Source of the DNA: Streptococcus sp. HSISM1
GTDB taxonomy: Bacteria > Bacillota > Bacilli > Lactobacillales > Streptococcaceae
Direction of reading: 5' to 3'
NCBI RefSeq assembly: GCF_000448565.1
Contig: NZ_CM002128.1
Location: 1,047,114 to 1,095,149 of the forward strand
Length of the DNA: 48,036 bases
The notes below the pieces were generated by a model, which saw only the letters and a list, made by a program, of their open reading frames with translations, was not told the DNA's origin and searched no databases. This document shows, one piece after another, positions 7,256-40,762 of the stretch. The stretch's first letter is position 1, and each line of letters opens with the position of its first letter. Made by a program: the position numbers and the translations under genes.

Positions 7256-7430
7256 GAGGCTGGGACAAAAGTCCTAGCCTCTCAATTGTCTTTGAATTGT
7301 CGAGCAAGACGCAGTGGTTAAGTGGGCTCTACTACGCTGATTTCATCAGCTTTTACAGCCCTACTTAACTGTGCGGAGGTGGGACGACGAAATCGAATTC
7401 TAACGAATTACCGATTTCTGTCCCACTCTC
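7256..7430 (+). repeat. 175-bp structured intergenic repeat, copy 1
   Basis: This is one of three near-identical copies (others 15377-15551 and, inverted, 40588-40762). The ends are imperfect inverted repeats (GAGGCTGGGACA / TGTCCCACTCTC). It folds as three hairpins: an 11-bp stem with AAAA loop at the 5' end; a central stem GTTAAGT/ACTTAAC enclosing GCTGAT-TTC-ATCAGC; and a long 3' stem (GTGGGAC...GAAATCG / CGATTTC...GTCCCAC) followed by a T-rich run, which is a good intrinsic terminator. It sits just behind gor in the same orientation. Confidence 0.93.
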
Positions 7431-7441
7431 TTTTTCTTTGT

Positions 7442-8173
7442 TTATGGTAAGATGGCAATGGCACGGACAGGTGAACCAGTTGCCTTGTCCCAGTGAGGGA
7501 AAGCAATCGAAATCAAGGCACCTACAGCTGGAACTTGGTCCAATTGGTTCAAGACTTCAACTTGGTAGATATTTTGTTCCAAGAGGTAGTATTCATTGAC
7601 CAAGCCATGCTCTGCTGCTGGAATACCTGCATCTGTATCGAAGGTTTCATGACCCACAGCCTTAACATGGCGTTCATGAATCAAGAATTCCAAGGCTTCA
7701 CGGCTCCATCCTGGACTTTGTTGAACCCCATTTTCATCAAGATTGCGCATAGCATCTTGATCTGGCCAACGTTTTGACCAATCACTGCGGAAGGCAACAA
7801 AAGCACCCTCAGCAATTTGTCCATGCTCTGCCTCAAAGTCTAAGATATCTTGTTTACTCAAGATAAAGTTTGGATTGGCAGCAACTTCTTTAGACTTGTC
7901 GATAACATAGAGTGGCAAGAGGAGATCTTTGAGGTCAATCTCATCCAACCAACGACCACCTTCTACAAAGTGAATCGGTGCATCAATATGCGTTCCGTAT
8001 TGACCAACCACTGTAAATTTTTGAACATGGAAACCATCTTTTAATGTGAAAAGATCTTCTTGTTGCAAAGCAGGAAGGGCTGGGAAGTGTGGACTTTCCG
8101 CATTGATTTGGTGACTCAAGTCCACCCATTTTTTAGCTTGCAATTCTTTATAAATACTTAGTAAATCTGACAT
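7442..8173 (-). CDS. Cyclase-family (kynurenine formamidase-like) metal-dependent hydrolase
   Basis: This 243-residue protein belongs to the cyclase/KynB-like family (PF04199). The diagnostic metal-binding motif is present as YGTHIDAPIHF near residue 60, with a second histidine cluster around AVGHETFDTDAG near residue 172. Characterised members hydrolyse amide or lactone bonds (N-formylkynurenine, for example), but the substrate here is unknown. It lies 12 bases downstream of the MetE-like gene on the same strand and is probably co-transcribed from the promoter at 9378-9406. No other kynurenine-pathway gene is nearby, so a formamidase role is doubtful. Confidence 0.85.
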   Translation of the reverse strand: MSDLLSIYKELQAKKWVDLSHQINAESPHFPALPALQQEDLFTLKDGFHVQKFTVVGQYGTHIDAPIHFVEGGRWLDEIDLKDLLLPLYVIDKSKEVAANPNFILSKQDILDFEAEHGQIAEGAFVAFRSDWSKRWPDQDAMRNLDENGVQQSPGWSREALEFLIHERHVKAVGHETFDTDAGIPAAEHGLVNEYYLLEQNIYQVEVLNQLDQVPAVGALISIAFPHWDKATGSPVRAIAILP

Positions 8174-8185
8174 GTTTCTTCCTCC

Positions 8186-9328
8186 TTATTCGCCCCAAAC
8201 TTCAGCGACAATTTCCTTAATCAAACCGATTTTTTTCCATTGGTCTTCTTCTGTCAAAATGTTTCCTTCTTCTGTCGAAGCAAAGCCACACTGAGTAGAC
8301 AGGTAAAGATTTTCCAACGGTACATACTGACTCGCTTCTTTAATACGAGCAATCACTTCGTCCTTATTCTCCAGTTGACCACTCTTAGATGTCAAGAGGC
8401 CTAACACCACTCCTTTACCAGGGGTTACTTCTGCAAGTGGTTCAAAACCACCAGCCCGATCGGTATCAAACTCTAGGAAGTAAGCATTAACGGCTTCTTC
8501 TCCAAGGAGTTCTTTGGCAATCGGCGCATAGCCACCTGATGAAGCCCAAGTGGAATGGAAGTTCCCACGACAAACGTGCGTATTGACGGTCAAACCAGCT
8601 GGAACATTTTGGTAGACATCGTTGTTAAAGGTCAAGAAGAGATCAGCGAGTTCCCGGCGAACCTCATCTTTTGACTTGCCTTGAGCTGCTCCCCAAGCCG
8701 TCAAGAAATTATCATCTACCAAGACACCCCAAGTACAATCATCTACTTGAAGAGTCCGAAGACCTGCATCATACAAATCTTGAATCACTTGAAGATAGGC
8801 TTGCTTGATGTCTTCACGAACAGCCGCAAAATCAGGATAGATGGTATTCAATTGTTCTACATGTTCTGCATCACGGATCAATTCAAAATAGAATTGTGCA
8901 GGTGCTGGAATGGTATATTTAGCCTCTACACCATCTACATCTGCCACAAGATCCCGCAAGAACTTGTAATGCTCTACAAATGGATGATTGGCTCCTGTGA
9001 TTTTTCCAACGACAAGCGCTGAGTCCGCCTTGGTTGTTTCATCATGGAATTGATAGCCTTGAGCAGCTTGGACATGATCAATGCCCCCAAAGCCCCAGAA
9101 GAAATCCAAATGCCAATAAGCTCGGCGGAATTCTCCATCAGTTACTGACTTCAGACCAGCGGCAATTTCTTTTTCAACGAGGTCACGAATCGCCTGATCT
9201 TCTACTTTTGTTAAGTCAGCCTGACTGATTTTTCCAGCTGCGAAATCTTCACGAGCCTGAACCAAAGTAGCTGGACGAAGAAATGAACCAACATGGTCTA
9301 CGCGATAAGGTGCATGTGTATGTGTCAA
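8186..9328 (-). CDS. MetE C-terminal-like cobalamin-independent methyltransferase (YxjG/YxjH type)
   Basis: This 380-residue single-domain protein corresponds to the catalytic C-terminal half of methionine synthase MetE. The family's zinc ligands can be placed in NTHVCRGN (His and Cys, about 251 and 253), a glutamate in YFLEFD, and Cys in STQCGFAS (about 347). Family members transfer a methyl group to homocysteine or a related thiol; short forms lacking the N-terminal half may use a different methyl donor. The start is TTG 9328, preceded by GAGGG at 7 bases; no in-frame ATG lies nearby. A MET-box-like site upstream supports a role in methionine metabolism. Confidence 0.88.
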   Translation of the reverse strand: MTHTHAPYRVDHVGSFLRPATLVQAREDFAAGKISQADLTKVEDQAIRDLVEKEIAAGLKSVTDGEFRRAYWHLDFFWGFGGIDHVQAAQGYQFHDETTKADSALVVGKITGANHPFVEHYKFLRDLVADVDGVEAKYTIPAPAQFYFELIRDAEHVEQLNTIYPDFAAVREDIKQAYLQVIQDLYDAGLRTLQVDDCTWGVLVDDNFLTAWGAAQGKSKDEVRRELADLFLTFNNDVYQNVPAGLTVNTHVCRGNFHSTWASSGGYAPIAKELLGEEAVNAYFLEFDTDRAGGFEPLAEVTPGKGVVLGLLTSKSGQLENKDEVIARIKEASQYVPLENLYLSTQCGFASTEEGNILTEEDQWKKIGLIKEIVAEVWGE

Positions 9329-9377
9329 TATGATTCCCTCTTTCCTATAAGTTTTACATTAATTCATCAATGCAACC

Positions 9378-9406
9378 ATTATAGCAGTCCAACACCTGAT
9401 AAACAA
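9378..9406 (-). promoter_or_regulatory. Promoter of the MetE-like/cyclase operon
   Basis: On the minus strand TTGTTT (9401-9406), exactly 17 bases, then TATAAT (9378-9383), with an upstream TGC that also makes it an extended -10. Confidence 0.85.
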
Positions 9407-9439
9407 GGGTTTGGGATAATCTAATATCTTTGATATCTA

Positions 9440-9456
9440 TATAGCCTTAGACTATA
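9440..9456 (-). promoter_or_regulatory. MET-box-like regulator site (MtaR/MetR type)
   Basis: The minus strand reads TATAGTCTAAGGCTATA, matching 13 of the 16 defined positions of the streptococcal MET box TATAGTTTNAAACTATA. It is centred about 45 bases upstream of the -35, a position compatible with activation by a LysR-type regulator. It sits between the MetE-like gene and the ydbC terminator. Confidence 0.6.
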
Positions 9457-9457
9457 A

Positions 9458-9481
9458 CAAAAAAAGAAGTCCTTGAAGGAC
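9458..9481 (-). terminator. Terminator of ydbC
   Basis: The minus-strand hairpin GTCCT-TCA-AGGAC is followed by TTCTTTTTTTG, 9 bases beyond the ydbC stop. Confidence 0.8.
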
Positions 9482-9489
9482 CCCTTTTC

Positions 9490-9702
9490 TTAATTTTTAA
9501 ATGCATCGAGCATGACTTGGAACTCTTCGTTTGTGAGTGTAATGCCTTTCCCCATTTTTGTATGGTCGGGACTCCAGGTCCGGATATCATACTTAGCAGG
9601 AGCACCATTAAAACTCACACGGTTCAATTCTTTGGTCCAACCCTTGTCATTTTCTGACAAGACCAGCAAATGTTCTTCGATTTGGAATGAAAATTCTGCC
9701 AT
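9490..9702 (-). CDS. YdbC family protein, PC4-like single-stranded DNA-binding fold
   Basis: This 70-residue protein matches the YdbC/PC4-like family, homodimers that bind single-stranded nucleic acid. Typical features are the F-x-I-x-E-H-L-x-V-L-S opening, the GWTKELNRVSFNG and KYDIRTWSPDH strands, and the C-terminal helix GKGITLTNEEFQVMLDA. I chose ATG 9702 because AAGGAG precedes it and family members begin M-A-E-F; the open frame extends 29 codons further upstream without support. From memory, a pneumococcal homologue (SP_0782) lies in the same neighbourhood. It is transcribed divergently from the small gene at 9808. Confidence 0.85.
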   Translation of the reverse strand: MAEFSFQIEEHLLVLSENDKGWTKELNRVSFNGAPAKYDIRTWSPDHTKMGKGITLTNEEFQVMLDAFKN

Positions 9703-9740
9703 TTCACGACTCCTTTCTTGCCTTCTCATCTCTAATATTC

Positions 9741-9777
9741 GTAAATCATTTACAAAATCGTTTAAATTATCTATAAT
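9741..9777 (+). promoter_or_regulatory. Promoter of the 9808 gene with a palindrome over the -35
   Basis: TTTACA (9749-9754), 17 bases, TATAAT (9772-9777). The 13-base perfect palindrome GTAAATCATTTAC (9741-9753) overlaps the -35 hexamer in the divergent region between ydbC and the small gene, a plausible operator. Confidence 0.7.
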
Positions 9778-9807
9778 ATATTGTATCAAGTTATGGAGAA
9801 TTTAGCT

Positions 9808-10124
9808 ATGAAAAAATTTCTCGAGATCGTTAAAGACCGAGCAAATGAATTTTTCAATGGAAAAGTCAGTACCCCTGCCCCATTAGAAGATGAGAGAATT
9901 ATTGACATCATTCAACAAGCATTGCGAAAAAACAAGGGGTTCATGTTATTTTTTCAAACAAGAGTTTTACAGGCGATATTGTCAAGTATGACCAAGAACG
10001 CCGACAACTGATCGTGAAAAATTTTAAAAAGAGTATGTCCACGATTATTCGGATTTCTGAGATCCAGAAAATCAGTTTGGTCCCCAATAATATTCGCATC
10101 GCCCAACAAAAAGGAGAGGTTTAA
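9808..10124 (+). pseudogene. Small conserved hypothetical protein (possibly YolD-like), frameshifted
   Basis: The start is ATG 9808 with GGAG 9795-9798. The first half (MKKFLEIVKDRANEFFNGK...) is in frame 1; the remainder, from about KQGVHVIFSNKSFTGDIVKY to the terminal K-G-E-V and TAA 10122-10124, is in frame 3. One extra A in the A6 run at 9927-9932 joins them into a 105-residue protein. The second half alternates beta-strand-like segments (ERRQLIVKNF, TIIRISEIQKISLVP) and weakly resembles YolD-like proteins, but I am unsure of the family. It has its own promoter and is divergent from ydbC. Confidence 0.65.
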
Positions 10125-10135
10125 CCCTCTCTTTT
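10114..10135 (+). repeat. Left copy of a 22-bp direct repeat, also a terminator hairpin
   Basis: The sequence is GAGAGG followed by TTTAACCCTCTCTTTT and overlaps the stop codon of the preceding gene. The same 22 bases recur with one mismatch at 12513-12534. Each copy folds as GAGAG/CTCTC with a short loop and a T-run. The two copies bracket the AT-rich HxlR/MFS segment. Confidence 0.8.
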
Positions 10136-10144
10136 ATATTGAAG

Positions 10145-10173
10145 ACAAACGTCATTTTTGGCGTTTGTTTTTA
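10145..10173 (+). terminator. Intrinsic terminator
   Basis: ACAAACG (10145-10151) pairs with CGTTTGT (10162-10168), followed by TTTTT. It is a second terminator behind the small gene, the first being the hairpin in the direct repeat. Confidence 0.8.
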
Positions 10174-10231
10174 TTACTTTTAATCTCATTTCTAAATTTA
10201 TTAGAGTATCAAAAAAATTCTATCAAATTTT

Positions 10232-10267
10232 AACTTTAACTTTTGAACCTAGTAAAAAGTTAAAGTT
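10232..10267. repeat. 13-bp perfect inverted repeat in an AT-rich gap
   Basis: AACTTTAACTTTT (10232-10244) and its exact complement (10255-10267) are separated by 10 bases. There is no adjoining T-run on the plus strand, so it is not an obvious terminator. It lies about 120 bases beyond the hxlR-type gene stop inside the presumed insert; no gene is visible in 10174-10387. Confidence 0.7.
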
Positions 10268-10387
10268 CCAGTACATACTACTAGTATTGACGTTGCCTTG
10301 ATTAAAAAGGTCACCAAATCTTTCATAATTACATTATCTATTTAAAGAAAAATATTAGTAATAAATTATGTAAATTCAATCTAATCT

Positions 10388-10717
10388 CTAAGCACCATAA
10401 GTATGCTCCCATTTTTTCATTTCTTCAACGATACTTCTTAGAGCAATACCTTTTTTTGTCATTTTATATTCAACCTGTGGAGGCGATGTCGGTAAAACTT
10501 TTCTTGATAAAATACCTTCTTGCTCAAAATCATGTAATCGTTGAGCTAATATTCTAGGATTAATACCTTCTACACTACGCAAAAGACTACTATAATGTAT
10601 ATTACCATCAATAATTTCAGATAAGATCTCAAGAGTAAATTTACCTTTTAGTAAATTCAAGACCCTTCTTGCTGGACAAATTGATTTTTTCAAAGATTGC
10701 TTCTTGCAAGTCTCCAT
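10388..10717 (-). CDS. HxlR family winged-helix transcriptional regulator
   Basis: This 109-residue protein has the HxlR core: N-terminal cysteines (METCKK, ICPAR), the helix LLKGKFTLEILSEIIDG, the recognition helix INPRILAQRLHDFEQEG, and the wing PPQVEYKMTKKG. Such dimeric regulators often sense electrophiles or oxidants through the conserved N-terminal Cys. The ATG is preceded by AAGGAGG. It is divergent from the MFS transporter, which it probably controls, and a palindrome over its own -10 suggests autoregulation. AT-rich codon use sets it apart from the housekeeping genes around it. Confidence 0.92.
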   Translation of the reverse strand: METCKKQSLKKSICPARRVLNLLKGKFTLEILSEIIDGNIHYSSLLRSVEGINPRILAQRLHDFEQEGILSRKVLPTSPPQVEYKMTKKGIALRSIVEEMKKWEHTYGA

Positions 10718-10735
10718 TCATTTCCTCCTTTTTTG

Positions 10736-10746
10736 ATAGTTACTAT
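10736..10746 (-). promoter_or_regulatory. Palindrome over the hxlR -10 (candidate operator)
   Basis: ATAGT-T-ACTAT is an 11-base perfect palindrome. On the minus strand it overlaps TATAGT, the likely -10 of the regulator gene, immediately upstream of its ribosome site. A second dyad, ATGATA-N9-TATCAT (10781-10801), lies on the MFS side of the gap. Confidence 0.5.
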
Positions 10747-10819
10747 ACTTTTTTTCCCTTCTTGTTTCAGAAATTATTACATGATAAGCTAATTATATCA
10801 TTTGAAAGGGGAAATTACT

Positions 10820-10945
10820 ATGGATATTACAACTAAGTTTGACCGTATCAAAGATATTCTCGGTTGCGCTGATGGTAGATACTTTGGCACTGGATATACT
10901 CAAGTAAAATATTTTCAGAAAGTTAAATATATTGCTTTTGATTGA
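10820..10945 (+). CDS. Small open frame between HxlR and MFS genes, possible gene remnant
   Basis: ATG 10820 is preceded by AAAGGGG and reads 41 codons to TGA 10943-10945, beginning M-D-I-T-T-K-F-D-R-I and ending Y-I-A-F-D. It ends 40 bases before the MFS start. I do not recognise it. It could be a leader peptide, a small protein, or the joined ends of an internally deleted gene. Confidence 0.35.
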   Translation: MDITTKFDRIKDILGCADGRYFGTGYTQVKYFQKVKYIAFD

Positions 10946-10985
10946 TAAATGAAAATTGGTTTGATGAAATAACGGAGGAAGCTTG

Positions 10986-12356
10986 ATGAAAAAAACAAAT
11001 ACAAAAGCGCCAGCTTATCTACTTTTTATTCTTTCACTAGGATACATTATGGCGGTCCTAGATACAACCGGAGTGGTTCTTGCTGTTCCCCATATTGAAA
11101 CAGCTATGAGCGTCTCATTAGAGCAATCCATTTGGATTATTAACGCCTATACACTAGCTTTAGGCTCTTTACTCCTACTTTCAGGAAATCTAACAACAAA
11201 ATATGGTGCTAAACGAATTTTATTATTTGGAATGACAATTTTTACACTTGCCTCATTTGGGTGCTCTTTTTCACCAAATATTGAAACATTAATCATACTT
11301 AGATTCGTTCAAGGTTTCGGTGCTTCTTTGTTTATGCCTAGTTCATTAGCACTTTTATTCATTTCATACCCTGATTCTACTAAAAGAGCACGTATGTTAG
11401 GAATTTGGACAGCAATTATTTCTGTTGCAACCGGTACTGGTTCTTTTATTGGTGGACTAATTATTAACTACTTCGGATGGAGGGGTATTTTCTTAATCAA
11501 TATTCCATTGGGAATTTTGACAGTAATTTCAATATTACTTCTTGTGAAAAACAATATTGCCAATCCAAAGACTAGAATTGACATTTTCAGTAATATATTT
11601 CTTGTTGCAACTATCGGAAGTCTAGTTATTTACCTTGTTGAAGGGAATCAATATGGCTATAGTAACCTAAATCTTTTATTGTTTCTTCTCCTATTTATAT
11701 TATTTACTGTTGGTTTAGTAGTCCACGATAAAAAAAGTAAAGCACCTATTGTTCCCCACCAACTATTAAAAAATGCTAAGTTTATTGTCTCTAATCTGTT
11801 AGGTTTAGTAGTTAACATTTCATTATATGGTATTGTTTTGGTGCTAGGACTTTATTTTCAAACTTATTTAAACCTCTCCTCAATGGTTTCTGGACTCCTC
11901 ATTCTACCAGGAATGATTGTCTTAATTATTGGTAATTTATTTTACGCACGTGCTATAAAACGATTTTCCGTGGGAAGCCTCGCTACTGTCTCAATTATTT
12001 TTGCCATTGTAGGAGCAGCAGGAATTTTTGGAATGGGAGTCCTTTTTCATGAAATTCAACTATACATCCTAATCCCTTTATTTTCTTTAATGAGCCTTGG
12101 TATCGGAGTGTTAACTCCAGCAACTACTACCATTCTTATGGAAGCTGCTGGTCAAGAATTATCTGGAATTGCTGGTGCAACTTTAAACGCTAACAAACAA
12201 ATTGGTGGACTTTTTGGTACAACAATTATGGGGATTCTAACTACTAATTTATCCCATAATTGGAATATGGTTATCGTTGTCGCATTTTTGGTTAACGTGA
12301 TAATGTATATTGCTACTTGGTTAATTGCTAGTCGTTACCTTTATGGAAAAGAATAA
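10986..12356 (+). CDS. MFS drug efflux transporter, DHA2 (EmrB/QacA-like) family
   Basis: This 456-residue membrane protein is predicted to have about 14 helices. Helix 1 carries the family signature MAVLDTTGVVLAVPHIE (a D in TM1 followed by V-x-x-A-V-P-x-I), and the loop 2-3 motif is present as GNLTTKYGAKRILLFG. These proton-driven exporters expel hydrophobic or cationic drugs. ATG 10986 follows GGAGGA (about 7 bases); the TTG one codon earlier is not needed. Divergence from an HxlR regulator implies inducible expression. Strongly AT-rich codon use and flanking direct repeats suggest horizontal acquisition. Confidence 0.93.
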   Translation: MKKTNTKAPAYLLFILSLGYIMAVLDTTGVVLAVPHIETAMSVSLEQSIWIINAYTLALGSLLLLSGNLTTKYGAKRILLFGMTIFTLASFGCSFSPNIETLIILRFVQGFGASLFMPSSLALLFISYPDSTKRARMLGIWTAIISVATGTGSFIGGLIINYFGWRGIFLINIPLGILTVISILLLVKNNIANPKTRIDIFSNIFLVATIGSLVIYLVEGNQYGYSNLNLLLFLLLFILFTVGLVVHDKKSKAPIVPHQLLKNAKFIVSNLLGLVVNISLYGIVLVLGLYFQTYLNLSSMVSGLLILPGMIVLIIGNLFYARAIKRFSVGSLATVSIIFAIVGAAGIFGMGVLFHEIQLYILIPLFSLMSLGIGVLTPATTTILMEAAGQELSGIAGATLNANKQIGGLFGTTIMGILTTNLSHNWNMVIVVAFLVNVIMYIATWLIASRYLYGKE

Positions 12357-12395
12357 AACCAAACAGAATGCATTCAATTAAAAGTTGATTATACA

Positions 12396-12440
12396 GATTG
12401 AAGAAAAAGTCCATTTAGACAATTTTCTTCAATCTTTTTT
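12396..12440 (+). terminator. Terminator of the MFS gene
   Basis: GATTGAAGAAAA (12396-12407) pairs perfectly with TTTTCTTCAATC (12423-12434), followed by a T-run. Confidence 0.9.
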
Positions 12441-12455
12441 CATAATTATATAAAG

Positions 12456-12500
12456 AAAAAACTCTAAAGGAGAAGTTTTTCTAGTCCTAATAGAGTTTTT
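12456..12500. terminator. Second hairpin downstream of the MFS gene
   Basis: AAAAACTCTA (12456-12465) pairs with TAGAGTTTTT (12491-12500) across a 25-base loop, with T-rich tails in both directions. It could end transcripts from either side. Confidence 0.55.
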
Positions 12501-12512
12501 CTATATTCTGAA

Positions 12513-12534
12513 GAGAGATTTAACCCTCTCTTTT
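12513..12534 (+). repeat. Right copy of the 22-bp direct repeat, also a terminator hairpin
   Basis: GAGAGA followed by TTTAACCCTCTCTTTT matches 10114-10135 with one mismatch. It folds as a small terminator (GAGAG/CTCTC, T-run) and abuts the U32 peptidase gene end. It marks the right boundary of the presumed 2.4-kb insert. Confidence 0.8.
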
Positions 12535-12537
12535 TTG

Positions 12538-13824
12538 TTATACTCGAACAGTTTTACTTGCCCCATCTTTTGAGTAGAGATTGATTAAACCTTCCTGGCA
12601 AGAACGAATCATATCTCCTGGCTTGACTTCTTGTGGAACGGTGATCGTGAGAAGCTCCATCGGATTTGGTGCGCGATCAATCTTCACTCCATCCTTATCA
12701 TGCAAGTCTTGGATCTGGCATTCAAAATGACGGAAGCCTGGTCCGTAGAATTCCACTTGGTCGCCTTCATTGATGACATTCCGTTGGCGAATCGTCGCAG
12801 TCATGGTAGATGGATCAAAGTCAACCACTTCTCCTACAAATTTGTATTGAGGAATCTTACGACGTGCCCCAAACAATTGTTCATTTTCAGTCGGTGTTTG
12901 GTAGTAGAATCCAGTTGCTAATTCACGTTGAGCAACCTTCCACAATTCATTGATCAAATCATCCTTGATGGCATAAAAGGCTTCTGGACTTTCCATATAG
13001 GCATCACAAGCTGCCTTGTAACAGTTGGCTACTGTTGATACGTAATGGACAGATTTCATCCGGCCTTCAATCTTCAAGCTATCAACCCCATTGTCAATCA
13101 TGTCTGGAATATTTTCGATCATACACATGTCCACGGCTGACATAGAGTATTCTTCTGGGACTTGTCCTTTGATACTCTTGCGTTCTTGGCCAAATGGCAT
13201 ATCGTAGAGATCGTATTTCCAACGACAAGATTGAGAACAGCCACCACGGTTGGCATCCCGGTCAGACATGTGGTTAGAAAGGGTACAACGTCCGGAATAG
13301 GAAATACACATGGCTCCATGAACGAAGGCTTCGATCTCAAGATCGGTACGCTTACGGATCTCTGCCAACTCTTCCATGGATACCTCACGGGCCAAAACAA
13401 CACGGGTCAAGCCATATTCTTTCCAGAAATGGAAGGTCTCCACATTGGTTGCGGAAGCTTGCGTAGACAAGTGAATATTGAGGCCAGGTGCATAGGTTGC
13501 ACAGATTTCAATCAAGGCCGGGTCTGAGACGATCACGGCATCAAGGCCCATATCCCGCAATTCACGGAACCATTCACCAGCCCCTTGTTCATTTCCCTCA
13601 TGGGTCACCATGTTTGAAGCAACGTGAACATCAACGCCACGTGCATGAGCATATTCGATACCTTCACGAAGCTCATCCATGGTAAAGTTTCCGGCACGGC
13701 TACGCAAACCATAGGCTTGTCCACCAACGAACACAGCGTCTGCCCCATAATTAACGGCAACTTTTAATTTTTCTAATGTTCCAGCAGGTACCAAGACCTC
13801 TGGACGTTTTTTTGTATTTGTCAT
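12538..13824 (-). CDS. U32 family peptidase-like protein, TrhP2/YrrO-type tRNA hydroxylation protein
   Basis: This 428-residue protein carries the U32 signature around residues 165-205 (EAFVHGAMCISYSGRC, then GGCSQSCRWKYDL) with the clustered conserved cysteines, followed by the C-terminal U32-associated domain. Bacillus YrrO and E. coli TrhP/YegQ relatives are needed for 5-hydroxyuridine formation at the wobble position of tRNA, so that is the best-supported function; older annotations call it a collagenase-like protease. It pairs with the 309-residue U32 gene 94 bases upstream on the same strand, as yrrN-yrrO do. Confidence 0.9.
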   Translation of the reverse strand: MTNTKKRPEVLVPAGTLEKLKVAVNYGADAVFVGGQAYGLRSRAGNFTMDELREGIEYAHARGVDVHVASNMVTHEGNEQGAGEWFRELRDMGLDAVIVSDPALIEICATYAPGLNIHLSTQASATNVETFHFWKEYGLTRVVLAREVSMEELAEIRKRTDLEIEAFVHGAMCISYSGRCTLSNHMSDRDANRGGCSQSCRWKYDLYDMPFGQERKSIKGQVPEEYSMSAVDMCMIENIPDMIDNGVDSLKIEGRMKSVHYVSTVANCYKAACDAYMESPEAFYAIKDDLINELWKVAQRELATGFYYQTPTENEQLFGARRKIPQYKFVGEVVDFDPSTMTATIRQRNVINEGDQVEFYGPGFRHFECQIQDLHDKDGVKIDRAPNPMELLTITVPQEVKPGDMIRSCQEGLINLYSKDGASKTVRV

Positions 13825-13860
13825 GTTTTCTCCAATTTACAAGATTGTCGATATGATGAA

Positions 13861-14977: not shown

Positions 14978-15271
14978 ATGCCCGTAAGAAATTTAAGACA
15001 CTATGATGAAGAATTCGATTATATCGAATTAACCAAACAAACCCAAGAAACCCCTATTCAGGACTATGCTCCTGAAGTTGAACCCGCACCTCAATTAAGT
15101 GAATTGCTATATTTTTTAAATATCGCTATTTTCTGTGTGTTGACGGTGGTATTTAGTTTTATCTTTTTAGCAACAAAAATGAATACCTTCTTTGCGTTCG
15201 CTTTAGCGATTGGTTCTAGCTTTGCTAGTATTCAAGGGTTCCGAATTTACTACAATAAACGAAAAAAATAA
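14978..15271 (+). CDS. DUF3270-type streptococcal membrane protein
   Basis: This 97-residue protein has a charged N-terminal half (about 45 residues rich in E, D, T and Q) and two transmembrane helices (about residues 44-66 and 68-86) with a basic tail (YYNKRKK). It matches the pattern I recall for the streptococcal DUF3270 family, whose function is unknown. ATG 14978 is preceded by AGGAGAG. It is divergent from the U32 pair and ends in its own terminator. Confidence 0.75.
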   Translation: MPVRNLRHYDEEFDYIELTKQTQETPIQDYAPEVEPAPQLSELLYFLNIAIFCVLTVVFSFIFLATKMNTFFAFALAIGSSFASIQGFRIYYNKRKK

Positions 15272-15296
15272 AAATCAGGTTCGCCTGATTTTTTTA
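15271..15296 (+). terminator. Terminator of the DUF3270 gene
   Basis: AAAATCAGG-TTCG-CCTGATTTTTTT: a perfect 9-bp stem with a stable UUCG loop and a T-run. Confidence 0.92.
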
Positions 15297-15376
15297 TTTA
15301 CTCGAATTTTTTTAATTGGAATAACAATTGGAAGACAAAACTTAACTGCCAATTGCCATCTTACCTTCCATAAAAA

Positions 15377-15551
15377 GAGACTGGGACAAAAGTCCTAGCC
15401 TCTCAATTGTTTTTGGATTGTCGAGCAAGACGCAGTGGTTGAGTGGGCTCTACTACGCTGATTTCATCAGCTTTTACAGTCCTACTCAACTGTGCGGAGG
15501 TGGGACGACGAAATCGAATTCTAACGAATTACCGATTTCTGTCCCACTCTC
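15377..15551 (+). repeat. 175-bp structured intergenic repeat, copy 2
   Basis: Same length and orientation as copy 1 with a handful of differences. In the central stem, the A-T pair of copy 1 (7320/7366) is a G-C pair here (15441/15487), a compensatory change that supports a selected RNA or DNA structure. The 3' hairpin again runs into a T-rich tract (CTCTTTTTT). It lies about 105 bases behind the DUF3270 gene and 4 bases before the convergent YtxH gene end, so its terminator separates the two. Confidence 0.93.
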
Positions 15552-15555
15552 TTTT

Positions 15556-16014
15556 TTATGCTTCTTTTGTTTCTTCTTCAGCTGCTTCTTCAGAATCTTT
15601 TTCATCCAACTCTAACACGATGTCTTCTGATTCTGTTTGTTTGCGAATGGATTGAACCAAGTCATTGCCACTTAGATTTTCTTTTTGAAGTTTATCCTTA
15701 AATGAGTGATAGACTTCTTGAGATTTTTCAACCACATCTTGCGTCTTTTCTTTGACAGATTCCAAAACAGTTCCTGTCGTAATTTCTCCAGAACCAACTT
15801 TTTCTTTGGTTTGTTGGATCACTTCTGCTGCTTGTTTTGAAACATCCTTAGCAGTTTGTTTCACCGATTCATGTACTTCTTGAGGATCTTCTTGATAATC
15901 TTTTACGAAGCGCACCACTTTTTTAGTGACTTTCTTTCCTTGCTCTGTTGATAAATAGTAGGCTGCTGAAGCACCTGAAATCACACCAATTAATAAACTA
16001 GATAAACGTCCCAT
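15556..16014 (-). CDS. YtxH domain-containing protein
   Basis: This 152-residue protein has an N-terminal membrane or glycine-zipper-like segment (SLLIGVISGASAAYYLS) with the YtxH pattern G-x-x-G-A-x-x-x-Y-x-L-x-T-x-x-x-G-K-K. A long amphipathic, Lys/Glu/Gln-rich helical region follows (about residues 35-120), then a very acidic tail. YtxH-like proteins are linked to general stress in Bacillus; the molecular role is unknown. It ends the hprK-lgt-DUF948-ytxH cluster, 14 bases after the DUF948 gene, with AGGAAG before its ATG. Confidence 0.85.
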   Translation of the reverse strand: MGRLSSLLIGVISGASAAYYLSTEQGKKVTKKVVRFVKDYQEDPQEVHESVKQTAKDVSKQAAEVIQQTKEKVGSGEITTGTVLESVKEKTQDVVEKSQEVYHSFKDKLQKENLSGNDLVQSIRKQTESEDIVLELDEKDSEEAAEEETKEA

Positions 16015-34225: not shown

Positions 34226-34302
34226 TTTCTTCTCCTTTGTATGTTTCTTGTTTGTTAAAAGTCAGTTCATAGTTGACTCACTATCTTTTGCTATTCCTTT
34301 TC

Positions 34303-34841
34303 TCAATTTTTAAAAAAAGCAACTAACACCACAGCATAGACTAGAATAAGCAAGATTCCATAAAGGATTCCTGCCCATTTATAATAGCGATTCACACCAC
34401 AATAACGCTCCACATAAGCTCTACTTGGTTTTTCAGGATCATACCAAACCGTCATTGAAGAGCAAAGTGGAAATTGGGTCTGAAGGGCTGTATTGAAAGA
34501 AACAAATGAATTTCGATAAAAGGTAATCGAATTGGCTAACATATCTTCTCTAGTATAGATGTTTGGCACATTTCTAGGTCCCCATGGAGTAGAGATCGTT
34601 TTTACCAGAAAATAACGAAAAGATTTTTTATAAGCCACGCCATTTACCTCATATTCAACAATCGGAGGATTTCCCCTCTAAAGCGATTATAGCCCACAAT
34701 AGTTCCTTTGATGGATGATGTAGCAAGCCGAACCATCTTTTTATCACGGAAATAAAGATAAAAATAAGTACCACTCAAAAAAACTAAGGCTAAAAAGATA
34801 ACTATAGTTGAGAGCCAAAACAGTAGCATTTTAGTTGACAT
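34303..34841 (-). pseudogene. DUF3592-like membrane protein, frameshifted
   Basis: The N-terminal part (start 34841; one membrane helix, then SSIKGTIVGYNRFRGEI) and the C-terminal part (YEVNGVAYKKSFRYF, SSMTVWYDPEKPSRAYVE and a final helix) are in different frames. One extra G at 34667-34668 joins them through PPIVEYEVNGVAYKK into 179 residues. The layout of helix, beta-rich domain with V-x-V-W-Y-D-P-x-x-P and helix is that of DUF3592 proteins, whose function is unknown. It starts directly after the 35890-34842 gene. Confidence 0.65.
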
Positions 34842-35890
34842 TTATTTCTCCCCCAAATTTGATTGGTAGTACTCTAAAAACTCTTCTTCATTTTGAACTA
34901 TATGTTCTTTCCCATCTTTCGAACTACTCTCGGGAATGGTAAGATTCTTAAAGATGTTTTCACCTTTTGGAACAACCAATTTCAAAAAAGAGATTTTTAA
35001 ACGAACGTCTTCTGTTCCAAGGAAATACAATTCAGATAGCGAACCTTTACTCAATATATCATATACTTTTGGATACTTGCTTGCTAAAGAATCTGCTTGA
35101 ACTTTTTTAGTAAACCAAAACGCTGACCATACAAAATTAAAATGTTTGTTTGAAAGTTTATCGTTTTGATCGAGTATATCCTCAAGACCTTCTTTATTTT
35201 GCCATGCTTTTTGATTTACATCATAAAAGTCCTTACCTGTTTTTCCAGATGATGTTTTAGAAATAATTTTCCCCGTTTCTATATCTATGATACCAATAAA
35301 AGTTTTTGAGTTTGATTTACTATTCACTGCCATCTTTATAGGCAAATATGTTTTTCCTTCTTCAGATTGTAACAATTTTGGGGAATCCGCAACATTAATT
35401 GGAACATAATTTTTATTATATTCCCTCACCATCTTAAACACATCATAAGTTTTTGTTTAATCGTATTGTCTTTTGTATCGTAAACATCTAATAACCAGTA
35501 TTCTCCTTTTTCAGGGATATTACTCTTTAAATAAGGAACTTTATCATTTTCACTTAACCAGTACTTATATGCTGCCGACTTCAATTTGTAACTCTGCCGA
35601 ATAATAAAACGTTCACCATGCATCTCAATTCTATTGTTTCTGATGTCAATACGAGGATCATATTTCTTAGCCTCTTTCGCTTCCTTTAATTCAGCTTCGT
35701 TATCCCAGCTAATTGCTACCGCTTTATGATTAGCAATAAATTCATAATCCGTCATTTTTGCTCTCGGGCTCCACATGACAAACTGGGTTAGTTCATGTTT
35801 ACGATAAGCCTTATATGCAAGGCAAGCTCCTGTAATAGCAATTACAAGAAATAAAACTTGGACTAATTTGGATCTCATCAACTTTTTCAT
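34842..35890 (-). pseudogene. Membrane-anchored hypothetical protein, frameshifted
   Basis: The start is ATG 35890 with AAGGA. An N-terminal helix (LVQVLFLVIAITGACLAYKA) is followed by a polar, presumably external domain. The frame breaks after NTIKQK; one extra T in the T5 run at 35450-35454 continues it as TYDVFKMVREYNKNYVPINV, giving 349 residues. I do not recognise the family. Strand-rich segments (KTFIGIIDIETGKIISKT) suggest a folded extracytoplasmic domain. It stands between DUF443-like and DUF3592-like genes on the same strand, so it may belong to the same functional cluster. Confidence 0.6.
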
Positions 35891-35985
35891 TTCTATTTTT
35901 CCTTTCTAGTAATTGAATAAGATCTAACTACCATTCAGATTGATTTCATTTTGTTCAAACCGTAATTTTTATATGCACTTCTAGA

Positions 35986-36644
35986 TTATTTTATTTTAGC
36001 TTTGAAAGTTGACTCAGCTGAGAAATAAATTGTATTTCCAGACAATAAAAAATTGAGTGCAAAAACAAATAAACCTAAATGAACTACAAAGTTCGGAGCA
36101 AAATTAGTTATTACCGCATAACAAACCACCCCAACAATGATAAGAGAAATCGTTGGCATTAGAAGCGATAAAAAATAAATTTCAATGTTGTTGGGACACA
36201 ATATACTTTGATCAGATGATCATTATTCTCTAGCATGGACACAATTTTTCTTCTGCTCATCCACACGCGAATTCCCATCACAATACCAAAAACGAATAAC
36301 GTCAATCCAATATTGAGTAAATGAGAGTTGAAGTACAGATAATCTTCAATCGGAAACGCTCTCGATAAAAGCAATGCCACAAACGCAGCTCCAGAAGCTG
36401 TAATTCCTTTGTTATGTGTTAAACCATTCCTTTGCTTGTCGTTTCTAGATGTTGTTAATGTGTTAAATTCATCCTCAGTTAACCGAATAGCCCAATGGGA
36501 TGTAAAATACAAAAACCACGGGAAAAAGTATGAGATTATAAAAGGACGATCCACGTCTACTAAATAATGCTCATTATCTACATTTAGAATGCGATAGCGA
36601 AAATTTTTTTTTGCTAAATGTTCTATGTTTGCTTTTTTAAGCAT
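35986..36644 (-). pseudogene. DUF443 family (tandem five-TM) membrane protein, frameshifted
   Basis: The start is ATG 36644 with AAAGG. The opening K-N-F-R-Y-R-I-L-N, EHYLVDVDRPFIISYFFPW and TEDEFNTL follow the DUF443/TIGR01218 pattern. The first part ends out of frame after IKVYCVP; one extra G at 36193-36195 continues it as NNIEIYFLSLLMPTISLIIV through two or three further helices, giving 219 residues and about five helices. The Staphylococcus aureus protein TsaI, which protects against the type VII-secreted toxin TspA, belongs to DUF443; an immunity role here is inference. No toxin or type VII gene is visible in the window. Confidence 0.7.
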
Positions 36645-36688
36645 AAACAACCTTTCTATTCATATCAATTCATCAAGGAGATTTTTAA

Positions 36689-36808
36689 ATGATGAACCAC
36701 CCAAAATTTCTTGACCCATATTATCTACCATTAAATCACTTAGCAAAGATGCAATGTTTTCAGTCTATTGCAGTATTACATATTTTGATGGAATTATTGT
36801 CCGGATGA
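36689..36808 (+). CDS. Small open frame with a ribosome site, doubtful
   Basis: ATG 36689 (or ATG 36692) follows AAGGAG at 8 bases and reads 39 codons to TGA 36806-36808. It starts M-M-N-H-P-K-F-L-D-P and ends M-E-L-L-S-G. It runs against the surrounding minus-strand genes and overlaps the end of the 36794 gene by 15 bases. No family recognised; the ribosome site is its only support. Confidence 0.25.
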   Translation: MMNHPKFLDPYYLPLNHLAKMQCFQSIAVLHILMELLSG

Positions 36809-37329
36809 TCCCGTTTGACACTTCAATAGTTTAAGAATCTTTCTGGTCTTAATTTCCCGATGAAAATGCATCACACAAGCAAAAGCAAGAAGGTAGATCA
36901 TCAGACACAAAAAATCAGTTTCTCTGATAAAAGTAACCAAGAAAAAAATCCCTAAAAAAGCAAAAAGAATCTTCATAATAAAAATTGCAAGCACCTTTGC
37001 TCTAAGTGTTTTGCGCTCTTTTTCCTTCAAAACAACTGTTTTCCAATCAGTTCTCGGATCTTTTTTCTCGCCTTCGCTATCATCAACATTCCGAAAACTA
37101 TTAGAGTTCCAATCATTGCAATACTGATATTAATCGTATACGGTAAGGTCCCAAAGGCTGAATTTAAGGCACTTGCAATTCCTTTTAAAAGAAAGACTGT
37201 AAGTGGAGCAGCAACCATTATCCAATTAGAAGTATTTTTTTGATCTTGATATTGAAATACTTCGTTTTCTTCATCAAAATAAATCCATTTCAAATCCAAA
37301 TAACCGATATATGTTTTCACAATTAACAT
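36794..37329 (-). pseudogene. Small membrane protein, possibly a second DUF443-like protein, frameshifted
   Basis: The first 100 codons (MLIVKTYIGYLDLKWIYFDE...) carry two helices. One extra A in the A4 run at 37029-37032 joins them through KQLFLKEKERKTLRAK to a second part with two more helices (VLAIFIMKILFAFLGIFFLV, LCLMIYLLAFACVM), 178 residues in all. Helix number and size resemble the adjacent DUF443 protein, but sequence signatures are weak, so the family call is tentative. Read as two genes, the second would need a TTG start overlapping the first stop. Confidence 0.5.
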
Positions 37330-37432
37330 TTCTCCGTCAATTTATTAATGAGATAAAGTACTCTTATCATACACGAATTTAAGGTAAAGAGCAAATTCAT
37401 CACTAGATGAAGGGTTTTTAATCAGAAATCAA

Positions 37433-37454
37433 AAAACCACCTGCAGGTGGTTTT
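37433..37454. terminator. Terminator downstream of the membrane-protein island and before vicX end
   Basis: AAAACCACCTG-CAGGTGGTTTT is a perfect palindrome with A/T tails. On the minus strand it lies 6 bases past the vicX stop and so ends vicRKX. Confidence 0.88.
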
Positions 37455-37459
37455 CCATC

Positions 37460-38269
37460 TTATATCTTCGTCAAAGGGGTCGCGGTGTCTGGTGATGTAT
37501 CCAGCACCTCAAAATCGTGACCGACAGCTAGATCTGCTCTGGCCAGTTGGTTCTCCATGGTCATATGGGCCAATTCTTTGATATTGTTCTCTTTTGACAA
37601 ATGCCCCAGATAAATCTTCCTAGTACGATTCCCCAAGGTCCTGATCATGGCATCTGCCCCATCTTCATTAGAAAGGTGGCCTAGGTCAGACAAGATCCGT
37701 TGCTTCAAACGCCAAGCATACGAACCTGCTCGAAGAATTTCTACATCATGGTTGGACTCAATTAGATAGCCATCCGCATCCGCGACGATTCCTGCTAAGC
37801 GATCACTCACATAGCCCGTATCCGTCAGCATGACAAAGCTCTTCCCATCCTTCATCAAGCGATAGAATTGAGGGGCTGCAGCATCGTGACTGACCCCAAA
37901 ACTTTCGATATCGATATCGCCAAATGTTTTGGTCTTCCCCATTTCAAAGATATGCTTTTGAGCATCATCGACCTTTCCTAGATACTTGGTCCCTTCCATA
38001 GCCTTCCAAGTGGCTTCATTAGCATATAGATCCATCCCATATTTCCGCGCTAAAACACCCACACCATGGATATGGTCTGAGTGTTCGTGCGTAATCAGAA
38101 TGGCATCTAAATCTTCTGGTTTGCGATCAATTTCAGCCAATAGTCCCGTAATCTTTTTCCCTGAGAGCCCTGCATCAATGAGCAGTTTTTTCTTTGGTGT
38201 CTCAAGGTAGAAAGAATTTCCACTAGAACCTGAAGCTAAAATACTGTACTTAAATCCCTCTTCTGTCAT
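37460..38269 (-). CDS. vicX: VicX/WalJ/YycJ family MBL-fold metallohydrolase
   Basis: This 269-residue metallo-beta-lactamase-fold protein has the metal motif THEHSDHIHG (about residues 57-66), with further ligands in SHDAA, TDTGY and the C-terminal YLGHLSKEN. It is the third gene of the VicRKX system; YycJ relatives are implicated in DNA repair or nuclease activity and in fine-tuning the two-component system. I chose ATG 38269 (MTEEGFKYSILASG), 7 bases after vicK, since the open frame extends 49 codons further only because it runs through vicK. In other streptococci rnc and smc usually follow directly; here an island intervenes. Confidence 0.95.
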   Translation of the reverse strand: MTEEGFKYSILASGSSGNSFYLETPKKKLLIDAGLSGKKITGLLAEIDRKPEDLDAILITHEHSDHIHGVGVLARKYGMDLYANEATWKAMEGTKYLGKVDDAQKHIFEMGKTKTFGDIDIESFGVSHDAAAPQFYRLMKDGKSFVMLTDTGYVSDRLAGIVADADGYLIESNHDVEILRAGSYAWRLKQRILSDLGHLSNEDGADAMIRTLGNRTRKIYLGHLSKENNIKELAHMTMENQLARADLAVGHDFEVLDTSPDTATPLTKI

Positions 38270-38276
38270 TGACTCC

Positions 38277-39629
38277 TTATTCTTCCTCTTCTGTATCCCA
38301 GTCGTCTTTAATCGCATCTTTGTCGTACGGCAAGACAATGGTAAAGGTAGATCCCTTACCATATTCACTCTTGGCCCAAATAAAGCCTTTGTGCTGCTTA
38401 ATGATCTCCTTAGCAATGGCTAAGCCCAGACCAGTCCCACCTTGGGCCCGGCTACGCGCCTTATCCACTCGGTAAAAGCGATCAAAAATGCGTGGCAAGT
38501 CTTTCTTGGGAATTCCCAAGCCCTCATCTGAGATAGAGATAATCAACTGGGCATCTGTTGTTTTCATCCCTACCTTGATTTTCCCACCATCGGGTGAGTA
38601 TTTGATGGCATTGTTCAAGATATTGTCGATTACCTGGGTCATTTTATCCGTATCAATTTCAACCCAAATCGGGGTGATTGGATATTCACGGATCAGTTCA
38701 TACTTCTTGGTATCTTCTTGCGATTGACTCTTGATCTTATCAAACCGGTTTAAAATAAAGGTAATAAAGGCCGTAAAGTTGGTCAACTCGATGTCCAACT
38801 GACTAGTTTCATTATCGATTCGTGACAAGCTCAAAAGATCTGTGACCATACGCATCATGCGGTTGGTTTCATTGAGTGAAACCTTGACAAAATCTGGTGC
38901 CACCGGCTCTGACAAAGCGCCATCATCTAGGGCTTCCAGATAGGATTTTACACTGGTCAAAGGTGTTCGCAGTTCATGACTTACATTGGAGACAAAGAGG
39001 CGACGTTCCCGTTCTTCCTTGTCCTGCTCTGTCGTATCGTGCAAGACAGCTACCAGACCAGAGATAAAACCTGACTCGCGACGAATCAAGGCAAAGCGCA
39101 CACGAAGGCTTAAGTACTCCCCATTTTCATCCTGGGAATCGATGGTTAACTCTGGTACTTCAGTAATCAAGCTTCGCAGATCATAGTCGTCTCCGATAGA
39201 GAGCAAATCAAGAATACTGGTATTGAGAACCTCGTCCGGATTGACATTCAATTGCTTGGCTGCCATTTCATTGACCATGATGATCTGACCCCGTCTGTTG
39301 GTCGCAAGCACTCCATCTGTCATATAGGCTAGAATACTAGTCAGCCGCTTGGTTTCCTGCTCTAGGTTTTCATGCGTCAGACGAATGACCTCAGATAGAT
39401 CATTGATACTGTTGGTCATATCGGTCAGCTCTGGACTTCCTTGCATGTCGACCACTTCAGAGTAATCCCCAGCAATCAGATCTTTAATTTTGGCGTTTAG
39501 TTGTCGGAGCTTGATATTGTCCCTACGATTTTCTAGGAGAAGCAAGGCAACCACAATGATAAACCCAACCGTAATCAGAACAAAGACAAAGTTCGACGAC
39601 ATGACAAATTGTTTTATTAGATCAATCAT
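38277..39629 (-). CDS. vicK: Sensor histidine kinase VicK/WalK
   Basis: This 450-residue kinase has the streptococcal form with one transmembrane helix (about residues 12-33) and almost no extracellular domain. A HAMP region, a PAS domain (about residues 95-200), the H box [10 protein letters not shown] (phospho-accepting His), the N box NNAIKYSP, and G boxes DEGLGIP and GGTGLGLAI follow. It phosphorylates VicR and controls cell-wall hydrolase genes. Its start overlaps the vicR end by 8 bases. Confidence 0.97.
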
Positions 39630-40323
39630 TGTTTCTCATATAATATCCGACACCACGGCGGGTCAAGATATATTCTGGACGCCCCGGTGTGTCCTCGATT
39701 TTTTCACGCAAACGACGAACCGTCACATCCACCGTCCGAACATCACCAAAGTAATCATAGCCCCACACCGTCTCAAGAAGGTGCTCACGGGTCATGACTT
39801 GACCGACATGGGTCGCAAGGTGATAGAGCAATTCAAACTCACGATGGGTCAAGTCCAATTCTTTGTTGGCCTTTTGAACCAAGAAAGCGTCTGGAAGGAT
39901 GTGAAGATCACCAATTACAATTTCCGTATCGGCCTCATTTTCAAGCTGAGGATCAGCCGCAAACTCCGAACGACGCAACAAGGCCTTCACACGCGCTTGC
40001 AATTCTCGATTAGAGAAGGGTTTGGTTACATAGTCATCTGCCCCAATTTCAAGACCGATCACCTTATCAAATTCTGTATCTTTGGCAGAAAGGACAATAA
40101 TGGGCACATTGCTGGTCTTGCGAATGGTACGCGCTACTTCCAATCCATCAATCTCTGGCAACATCAAATCTAGAATAATAATATCCGGATTCTCAGCCAC
40201 AAAGACTTCCAAAGCTTCCCGGCCATCAAAGGCTGTCAAGACTTCATAGCCCTCTTTTGCCATGTTAAATTTGATAATATCTGAAATTGGTTTTTCATCA
40301 TCAACTACTAATATTTTTTTCAT
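39622..40323 (-). CDS. vicR: Response regulator VicR/WalR
   Basis: This 233-residue OmpR-family regulator has a receiver domain with acidic DDE residues at the N-terminus, the phosphorylated aspartate in [11 protein letters not shown] (about residue 52) and K in LSAKD. The winged-helix DNA-binding domain ends [10 protein letters not shown]. VicR is usually essential in streptococci because it drives pcsB and other wall-hydrolase genes. It is the first gene of vicRKX. Confidence 0.97.
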
Positions 40324-40374
40324 CTTACATACCTGTTTCTAATGCTTCTTTTCCTAATCAATCTCTATTTTCTT

Positions 40375-40380
40375 ATTATA
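40375..40380 (-). promoter_or_regulatory. -10 box of vicRKX
   Basis: Minus-strand TATAAT (40375-40380) about 50 bases before the vicR ATG; the -35 is weak. Confidence 0.6.
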
Positions 40381-40436
40381 TCAAACTTATGAAAAAATGT
40401 GGAGCCTCAATTGCTGGACTTTCCAATAAGAAAGGG

Positions 40437-40467
40437 AAAAAAAGACCGAGAAGTTAAAATCTCAGTC
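40437..40467 (-). terminator. Orphan minus-strand terminator upstream of vicR
   Basis: The minus strand reads GACTGAGA - 8-base loop - TCTCGGTC followed by seven T's. No intact minus-strand gene ends nearby; the nearest is the thrS-like fragment at 40862. It looks like the leftover end of a former gene. Confidence 0.8.
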
Positions 40468-40587
40468 TCAGAAAAAACGAATGATATGTAGAAGATAAAA
40501 TCACTTGAGTGATTCTAAAAAAAGTTAATTTCCTACTTGCTAGAATGAATGAATCATTTATTAAAAACTTTCCGTCGTGAGAAAAAT

Positions 40588-40762
40588 GAGAGTGGGACAG
40601 AAATCGGTCATTCGTTAGAATTCGATTTCGTCGTCCCACCTCCGCACAGTTGAGTAGGGCTGTAAAAGCTGATGAAATCAGCGTAGTAGAGCCCACTCAA
40701 CCACTGCGTCTTGCTCGATAATCCAAAGACAATTGAGAGACTAAAACTTCTGTCCCACTCTC
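40588..40762 (-). repeat. 175-bp structured intergenic repeat, copy 3 (inverted)
   Basis: The same element on the minus strand. Its ends are a perfect 12-base inverted repeat, GAGAGTGGGACA / TGTCCCACTCTC. The central stem carries the G-C version (GTTGAGT/ACTCAAC), and the 5' hairpin is kept through G-T pairs despite base changes. As with the other copies it lies behind a gene end in the same orientation, here the thrS-like fragment about 100 bases away. Confidence 0.92.

Follow-up and report, generated by a model that had tools for sequence, protein, structure and literature searches.

What stood at a gene end before a short repeat came to stand there? The question is raised by a stretch of 48,036 nt from Streptococcus sp. 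HSISM1 (NZ_CM002128.1, positions 1,047,114 to 1,095,149; "the window" below), which holds three copies of a 175-bp structured element. An earlier note on this DNA had taken them for a mobile or once-mobile cassette. Comparison with related genomes bears this out: at orthologous sites, the element may be present, absent, or inverted. Where it is absent, there is usually a small terminator-like hairpin in its place. Our reading, to which we give a probability of about 0.8, is that the element is a mobile, non-autonomous repeat, and that it colonises intrinsic terminators by replacing their hairpins.

From the 2.33-Mb genome of HSISM1 we aligned 70 full-length copies, which differ from each other at a mean of 5.05 of 175 positions. 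The assembly holds N gaps, and two pairs of elements (772292/773483 and 1402522/1403717) resemble duplicates made at scaffold gaps. The 70 include three of these four, so the true copy number may be one or two lower. A covariance model of the family returns all three copies in the window with E values of 2.5e-42 or better (Table 1), which confirms the positions and the length of 175 bp that the earlier note had given; copy 2 is a member of the model's training alignment. The three copies agree pairwise at 169, 164, and 166 of 175 positions.

Hairpins at the empty sites

For the orthologue test, we used 67 of the 75 sites identified by an 18-mer. Two of the others are not the element (1039153 and 2300749), and 772292, 773483, 1402522, 1403717, 305220, and 1729091 were also left out. 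The sites were split alternately into sample A (34 sites) and sample B (33 sites) and compared with relatives whose genomes are in one contig, four for sample A and three for sample B. (One site in sample B had only rows with repetitive flanks and was omitted, and one of 91 pairs was not included.) Sample A gave 123 pairs of site and genome at 34 sites: 77 filled (14 of them inverted), 27 clean empty, 7 complex, and 12 without usable flanks. Sample B gave 90 pairs at 32 sites: 56 filled (4 inverted), 22 clean empty, 7 complex, and 5 without usable flanks.

The empty alleles usually carry a terminator-like hairpin of 16-28 bp exactly where the element sits, and the element is centred on its dyad. 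The outer A- and T-tracts are kept around the element, as are, at times, the outer pairs of the stem. We placed breakpoints by hand at 18 sites (16 from sample A, copy 2, and the locus L191 of another Streptococcus; L and G numbers are our labels for loci and genomes) and found a hairpin at 17 of them, or at 15 by a strict standard. After viewing sample A, and before looking at the sequences of sample B, we set an automated rule. The boundaries of the element are projected onto the empty allele and the segment between them is folded; it passes with at least 6 pairs, a dyad no more than 1.5 bp off centre, and a stability among the highest 2% for that locus. This rule passed at 12 of the 15 sites in sample A that have a clean empty allele and at 10 of 13 in sample B (9 of 12 without copy 2, which had been viewed previously). 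So the empty sites that the earlier note had proposed to look for do exist, at 28 sites in all, and 22 of them have a centred hairpin under the strict rule. If the boundaries are shifted, 4 sites pass at -2 bp, 2 at +2 bp, and 0-1 further out. Among other windows, 115 of 9831 pass.

The site of copy 1, behind a gor-like gene, is one example: two named S. parasanguinis strains (L146 and L148) and Streptococcus sp. F0442 (L152), all without the element, carry a simple hairpin between A-rich and T-rich tracts. HSISM1 still has both tracts there, but has the element where the hairpin would be. Similarly, nine relatives hold ATGAGGCTCACTGAGCCTCAT or a variant of it at the place of copy 2 (L227, L229, L231-L233, L235, and L237-L239). 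The short hairpins vary between sites and are mostly unlike remnants of the element. Because the same hairpin recurs at a site in several relatives (4 of 4 at 196950 and at 2186941), we take the hairpin to be the older state.

The flanks of the filled sites give a second line of evidence, which is independent of the empty sites. The bases at -1 and +1 are Watson-Crick complementary in 54 of 68 copies, as compared to 41.8 +/- 2.2 after shuffling (0 of 5000 shuffles reach this), and 8 of the pairs are not A-T, versus 1.4 expected from shuffling. The next pair outward shows a weak excess (44 versus 40.0, reached in 321 of 5000 shuffles); across the 68 copies, there is no pairing excess further outward or in offset controls. 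We read these complementary bases as the probable outer base pairs of a lost stem. Perfect direct repeats of 3-9 bp flank none of 69 copies, so there is no target-site duplication of the kind made by a classical miniature inverted-repeat transposable element (MITE). The flanks are also rich in tracts: of five bases, a mean of 3.68 are A upstream and 3.65 are T downstream, against a background of 1.64. The G+C-rich hairpin III followed by a T-tract is what is expected of an intrinsic terminator, and hairpin I has the same arrangement on the other strand. The built-in terminator of the earlier note thus gains support from tract counts, as far as sequence can tell, and each of the three copies in the window does have a T-rich tract after its 3' hairpin, as claimed.

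Gene context agrees with this. Our gene calls are approximate (they come from a simple codon-usage gene caller), and 54 of the 70 copies have callable neighbours: 37 lie between tandem genes, 16 between convergent genes, and 1, copy 3, between divergent genes. As the earlier note proposed, the element is found at gene ends, in 53 of these 54 cases, with the nearest stop codon no more than 40 bp away in 47 of the 53. No open reading frame called in an earlier and stricter run spans any copy. The proposal that copies point along the upstream gene has to be dropped: in tandem contexts, 26 of 37 copies are opposite to the genes and 11 are along them (p = 0.02). This argues against selection on the mRNA of the upstream gene as the reason for the fold.

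At 13 of 66 sites, the element is turned the other way round in a relative. Except at 1198422, the inverted copies in sample A share breakpoints to within a few bases, which is what a symmetric hairpin as the target would give. The inverted copy that G141 has at 123204 differs from that of HSISM1 at 17 positions and has no variant in common with it, so it seems to have arrived independently. In G148, the inverted copy at 1087731 has two rare variants in common with the HSISM1 copy, and this could be an inversion in place via the inverted ends. As a side observation, 47 of the 70 copies are opposite to the prevailing gene direction of their half of the chromosome, with the halves judged by eye and confounded with gene orientation. 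Strand-biased insertion could give this skew, which is only a lead.

Several results count against replacement as the general rule. Of the 28 clean empty sites, six do not pass the strict rule: two (742185 and 1348366) show no convincing hairpin, and the other four (1248146, 2195996, 133399, and 1521191) have, by eye, weaker or off-centre hairpins. Among the 213 pairs of site and genome, 14 are complex and 17 have no usable pair of flanks. The background for stability is mostly coding sequence, so that criterion partly reflects position at a gene end; the centring and the shift controls are unaffected. At the one staphylococcal site that we compared, the right junction is at the end of the hairpin and the 5' arm is kept, so that the replacement is asymmetric. 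Direct repeats of 2 bp are present in 5 of 69 copies, versus 1.94 in shuffled flanks. We found no autonomous transposon with matching ends in the HSISM1 genome, where the Y1/IS200 family alone was searched. Finally, insertion itself is a step that we infer from the alleles.

How one stem-loop might be exchanged for another

The end products, at least, are clear: a hairpin is replaced symmetrically, its tracts are kept, no duplication of 3-9 bp is made, the element lies in either orientation, and strains differ. If the element stands for the inner 16-28 bp of the old hairpin, then its hairpin III would meet the old T-tract, and its hairpin I, read on the other strand, would meet the complement of the old A-tract. 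Each insertion would then rebuild a terminator on both strands, so that the host would tolerate the element. Element and target tracts together may well terminate transcription in both directions. In other words, the element seems to take over from the terminator stem, a part that is of use to the host, and to do that stem's work itself. Such near-harmless insertion could explain how there came to be about 70 copies in this one genome, with none seen within a called gene.

As for how this happens, a putative trans-acting activity might work on extruded or single-stranded DNA, recognise a stem-loop by its base, and put another stem-loop in its place. The agent could be an enzyme that cuts hairpins at their base, or the exchange could come about by template switching between terminators. 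We lean towards an enzyme because the junctions are equally exact where there are no A- or T-tracts in the flanks: at 2186941, the element is preceded by CAAGG and followed by CCTT, and at 1198422, it is preceded by GAAAC and followed by GTTG. A structure-directed exchange of stem-loops, in which the base of a hairpin is recognised whatever its sequence, the hairpin is removed symmetrically, and the element's own array is put in, would be a new mode of transposition. We put this forward tentatively, as a little short of an even bet. If it is true, and a dedicated enzyme exchanges stem-loops with structure as its only guide, then DNA would be rearranged in a new way, and the terminators of oral streptococci would turn over by invasion as well as by mutation.

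Alternatively, there may be no dedicated enzyme. In that case, a larger hairpin would be swapped in during replication or transformation, by single-strand annealing or template switching from one terminator to another, and the A- and T-tracts would serve as short homology. This would account for the symmetry, the kept tracts, the use of either orientation, and the lack of target-site duplications, and the presence of a different BOX-like element at the 141168 site in G141 also fits. On the other hand, the exact junctions at 2186941 and 1198422 have no such tracts to work with, and it leaves unexplained why one sequence spreads and other stem-loops do not. We think this rather unlikely.

Less likely still is that an ordinary MITE is inserted beside or into a terminator by a putative transposase, and that the old hairpin, now redundant, is later lost by selection or deletion. 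The element does have inverted ends, many near-identical copies, and variation in presence or absence, as a MITE would. Also, 7 of 68 copies have, no more than 50 nt away, a second hairpin with an energy of -9 kcal/mol or lower, which could be a terminator that has not been replaced, and the slight excess of 2-bp direct repeats points the same way. But separate deletions would leave ragged and asymmetric junctions, whereas at 22 of 28 sites the missing segment is centred on the dyad and the signal is lost by a shift of 2 bp, and duplications of 3-9 bp are not seen. So the MITE-like character that the earlier note proposed holds for the inverted ends and fails for the mode of insertion, in which a hairpin is replaced instead of DNA being added. 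It is highly improbable that the element is an ancient host-encoded family of structured RNAs or terminators, inherited vertically and decayed to short hairpins in some strains: covariation across the whole genus and a second genus would fit, but the short hairpins are specific to each site, common to several relatives there, and mostly unlike remnants, the element is more often opposite to the gene than along it, and neither the 5.05 differences per 175 positions within the genome nor the 97-99% identity of the best copies across species is expected.

The usual view of small interspersed repeats is that they add DNA to the target. A repeat that takes the place of a terminator hairpin would be a new variant among those of streptococci, and we did not find this mode of insertion described in the open-licence literature. 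For the question of how BOX-like repeats move, our sets of empty and filled alleles make one version directly testable.

Fold, spread, and known repeats

Three hairpins make up the fold of copy 2: I (positions 1-26), II (55-120, a long central stem), and III (121-175). The fold is far more stable than expected, with z scores of -6.8 for RNA from the forward strand, -7.5 for the reverse strand, and -6.5 for single-stranded DNA, and 0 of 200 shuffles were as stable in each of the three tests. We looked for covariation in an alignment of 31 sequences, with the structure taken from one of them. Standard pairs fill 89.7% of the cells (84.5% after shuffling). There are 24 pairs with changes on both sides, as compared to 12.1 +/- 2.0 in shuffled alignments and 8-15 if the structure is slid, and 99 cells with double changes, as compared to 27.9 +/- 5.4 and 13-39. 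None of 500 shuffles reached the observed values; still, taking the structure from an aligned sequence favours it over slid versions, and related sequences can beat shuffles. The three-hairpin fold is maintained by compensatory changes and is under selection. The covarying stems of the earlier note are thereby borne out, and the double change from A-T to G-C that it saw at 7320/7366 is visible in our alignment as well. G-U pairs outnumber A-C mismatches (156 versus 63, with most G-U cells in few columns), which leans towards the plus strand as the one that folds, either as RNA or as single-stranded DNA.

The consensus ends of the HSISM1 copies are GAGGCTGGGACA...TGTCCCACTCTC, and the G+C content of the element is 0.47. 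The inverted ends noted earlier are present in each copy in the window, with 11, 12, and 14 of 14 bases matching in copies 1, 2, and 3.

The family is large and apparently still moving. With one copy as the query, 207 of 284 genomes of Streptococcus species match at E 1e-5 or better and 77 do not, and the best copies in many of these species are 97-99% identical. Of 14 genomes reached via named loci, 10 match: S. gordonii DD07 (at least 42 matches, the best at 99%), S. sanguinis SK355 (12 matches, the best at 98%), S. sinensis, S. anginosus, S. intermedius, S. massiliensis, S. pseudopneumoniae, Streptococcus sp. Marseille-Q0941, and two S. suis genomes, which carry divergent members of the family. 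In the same set, S. pneumoniae 19F, S. mitis 321A, S. oralis CR140, and S. infantis SO had no match. The gor-like protein shares 98% identity with its counterparts in several named S. parasanguinis strains and 84% with that of S. gordonii; given that the best S. gordonii copy of the element is 99% identical, recent spread between species seems likely.

We also ran the covariance model, which was built from 31 diverse members, on 398 genomes of the class with strict filters. It matched 50 genomes in 2 of 145 genera, namely Streptococcus and a second genus with full-length relatives of the element. The second genus is probably Staphylococcus, as one of its loci carries the S. aureus small RNA tsr24 and named S. 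aureus records match the 3' half of the element. Two loci in this genus, L440 and L442, have a hairpin I that is itself terminator-like, and hairpin I of L440 resembles hairpin III. To judge from these sequences, the element may have originated from two terminators around a conserved central stem. Three loci from other genomes of the genus (L445, L446, and L448) have tandem arrays of a unit like CAACTGCATAAGAGGCTCTAATAACTTAAGTTAA at an orthologous gene end. In Rfam, the window had 0 matches above the gathering cut-off, and six further loci gave only tsr24, outside the element.

The earlier note could not match the element to the BOX, RUP, or SPRITE repeats, and the features that we compared uphold this, although one copy has a BOX-like inner module. 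Like the element, pneumococcal BOX (boxA-B-C) is small, structured, and mobile by its distribution. Its ends differ, however: in L205, L207, and L209, BOX has ATACTCAATGAAAATC...GATTTTCGAAGAGTAT. At one site that we compared by eye (L209 versus L204), BOX was inserted at TA beside an intact terminator, whereas the element replaces the hairpin. We rejected identity with pneumococcal BOX on the basis of these ends and of this one site. The HSISM1 copy with the inner module (G000:141168) includes CTCAAAGCACTGCTTTGAGG, in common with the BOX in L207; a boxB-like module is absent from the 70 full-length 175-bp copies. That copy lies outside the window and is 235 bp long, and a relative (L368) has a different, 276-bp BOX-like element there.

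SPRITE is also terminator-like, near gene ends, and enriched between convergent genes, but it is a single 18-bp duplex with a U-rich tract, 28% G+C, and AAAA/TTTT ends, as opposed to three hairpins and 47% G+C; RUP is about 107 bp with 27.5% G+C (PMC3049150). The BOX-type repeats of S. suis, which include RepSU1 (boxA-boxC) and the boxE-boxF family, are likewise interspersed and modular; their RNA is structured and they have inner modules that are boxB-like (Croucher et al. 2011, PMC3049150). We compared these by module size alone: A and C are about 50 nt, E is 115 nt, and F is 133 nt, and the sums differ from 175 bp (PMC3049150). The passages of that paper that we consulted do not mention replacement of terminators by these repeats (PMC3049150). 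The element may be related to them, given its divergent members in two S. suis genomes and the BOX-like inner module of one HSISM1 copy.

Two kinds of larger elements are also worth comparing. Group IIC introns are large ribozymes that target the stem-loops of intrinsic terminators, as the element does; they insert after the hairpin and keep it, while the element replaces it. IS200/IS605 elements, which use an HUH/Y1 transposase, and their MITEs have hairpins near both ends, use single-stranded DNA, and make no target-site duplication; we know of no IS200-type insertion that removes a hairpin. The HSISM1 genome has 16 matches to the Y1 transposase family PF01797, some of them split around N runs that have duplicated sequence to their left and right and so resemble scaffold gaps. 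We consider the IS200/Y1 transposase an unlikely mobiliser: the left end of this IS200 is unlike the element. Separately, IS200-type Y1 transposase copies start just 3' of the T-tract of a terminator-like hairpin at L405, L409, and L410, and not at L406 or L408. This suggests that terminators are targets of the IS200-type insertion sequence of this genome too.

A search of the open-licence literature, by titles and the starts of abstracts, found no account of the element or of a terminator-replacing repeat. When we searched with five stretches of the element's sequence, the titles among the matches listed were mosquito studies and one cotton study. A study of S. parasanguinis FW213 predicted 87 small RNAs, and we found no such repeat in the portion of it that we saw (PMC3329508).

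The three copies and their surroundings

Table 1. Element copies in the window and the sequences on either side of them
Feature	Positions	Strand	Detail
A-rich flank probably kept from the replaced gor terminator	7247..7255		Overlaps the gor stop codon; hairpin AAGCTTGAAG...CTTCAAGCTT in L146, L148, L152, and G224 (L353)
Element copy 1 (175 bp)	7256..7430	+	Hairpin I 7256-7281, central stem II 7310-7375, hairpin III 7376-7430, by register with copy 2
T-rich flank probably kept from the replaced gor terminator	7431..7439		Comparison with the same relatives at gor
A-tract probably kept from the replaced terminator of the YtxH gene	15372..15376		ATGAGGCTCACTGAGCCTCAT or a variant in relatives
Element copy 2 (175 bp)	15377..15551	+	Hairpin I 15377-15402, central stem II 15431-15496, hairpin III 15497-15551
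T-tract probably kept from the replaced terminator of the YtxH gene	15552..15557		Empty alleles of relatives
Left part of another interspersed repeat, own hairpin apparently replaced by copy 3	40566..40587		Present with its hairpin GTGCCTGAAAC...GTTTCAGGCAC in L228, L230, L236, and L242, at the site of copy 2, by eye
Element copy 3 (175 bp)	40588..40762	-	Hairpin I 40737-40762, stem II 40643-40708, hairpin III 40588-40642, by register
Right part of that interspersed repeat	40763..40825		Right limit approximate, by eye

According to the earlier note, all three copies lie behind the end of a gene and in the direction of that gene. This is wrong or incomplete. Copy 1 is between convergent genes, the gor-like gene (5900-7249, +) and a cyclase gene (7442-8173, -). 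Copy 2 is 105 bp beyond the DUF3270 gene (14978-15271, +), which by eye has its own hairpin and T-run at about 15270-15300, and just 4 bp separate it from the stop codon of a YtxH gene, which is on the other strand. Copy 3 is inside another interspersed repeat, between divergent called genes.

By eye, copy 3 appears to have replaced the hairpin of the repeat that surrounds it. That repeat is about 300 bp, with ends like AAACTTTCC...GGAAAGTTT, and is found at several sites in relatives (L228, L230, L236, L242, L299, and L342); several copies have the hairpin GTGCCTGAAAC...GTTTCAGGCAC. Also beside copy 3, a fragment of a gene end is duplicated: the 60 bp at 40862-40921 match the 3' end of thrS (42468-42527) at 77% identity.

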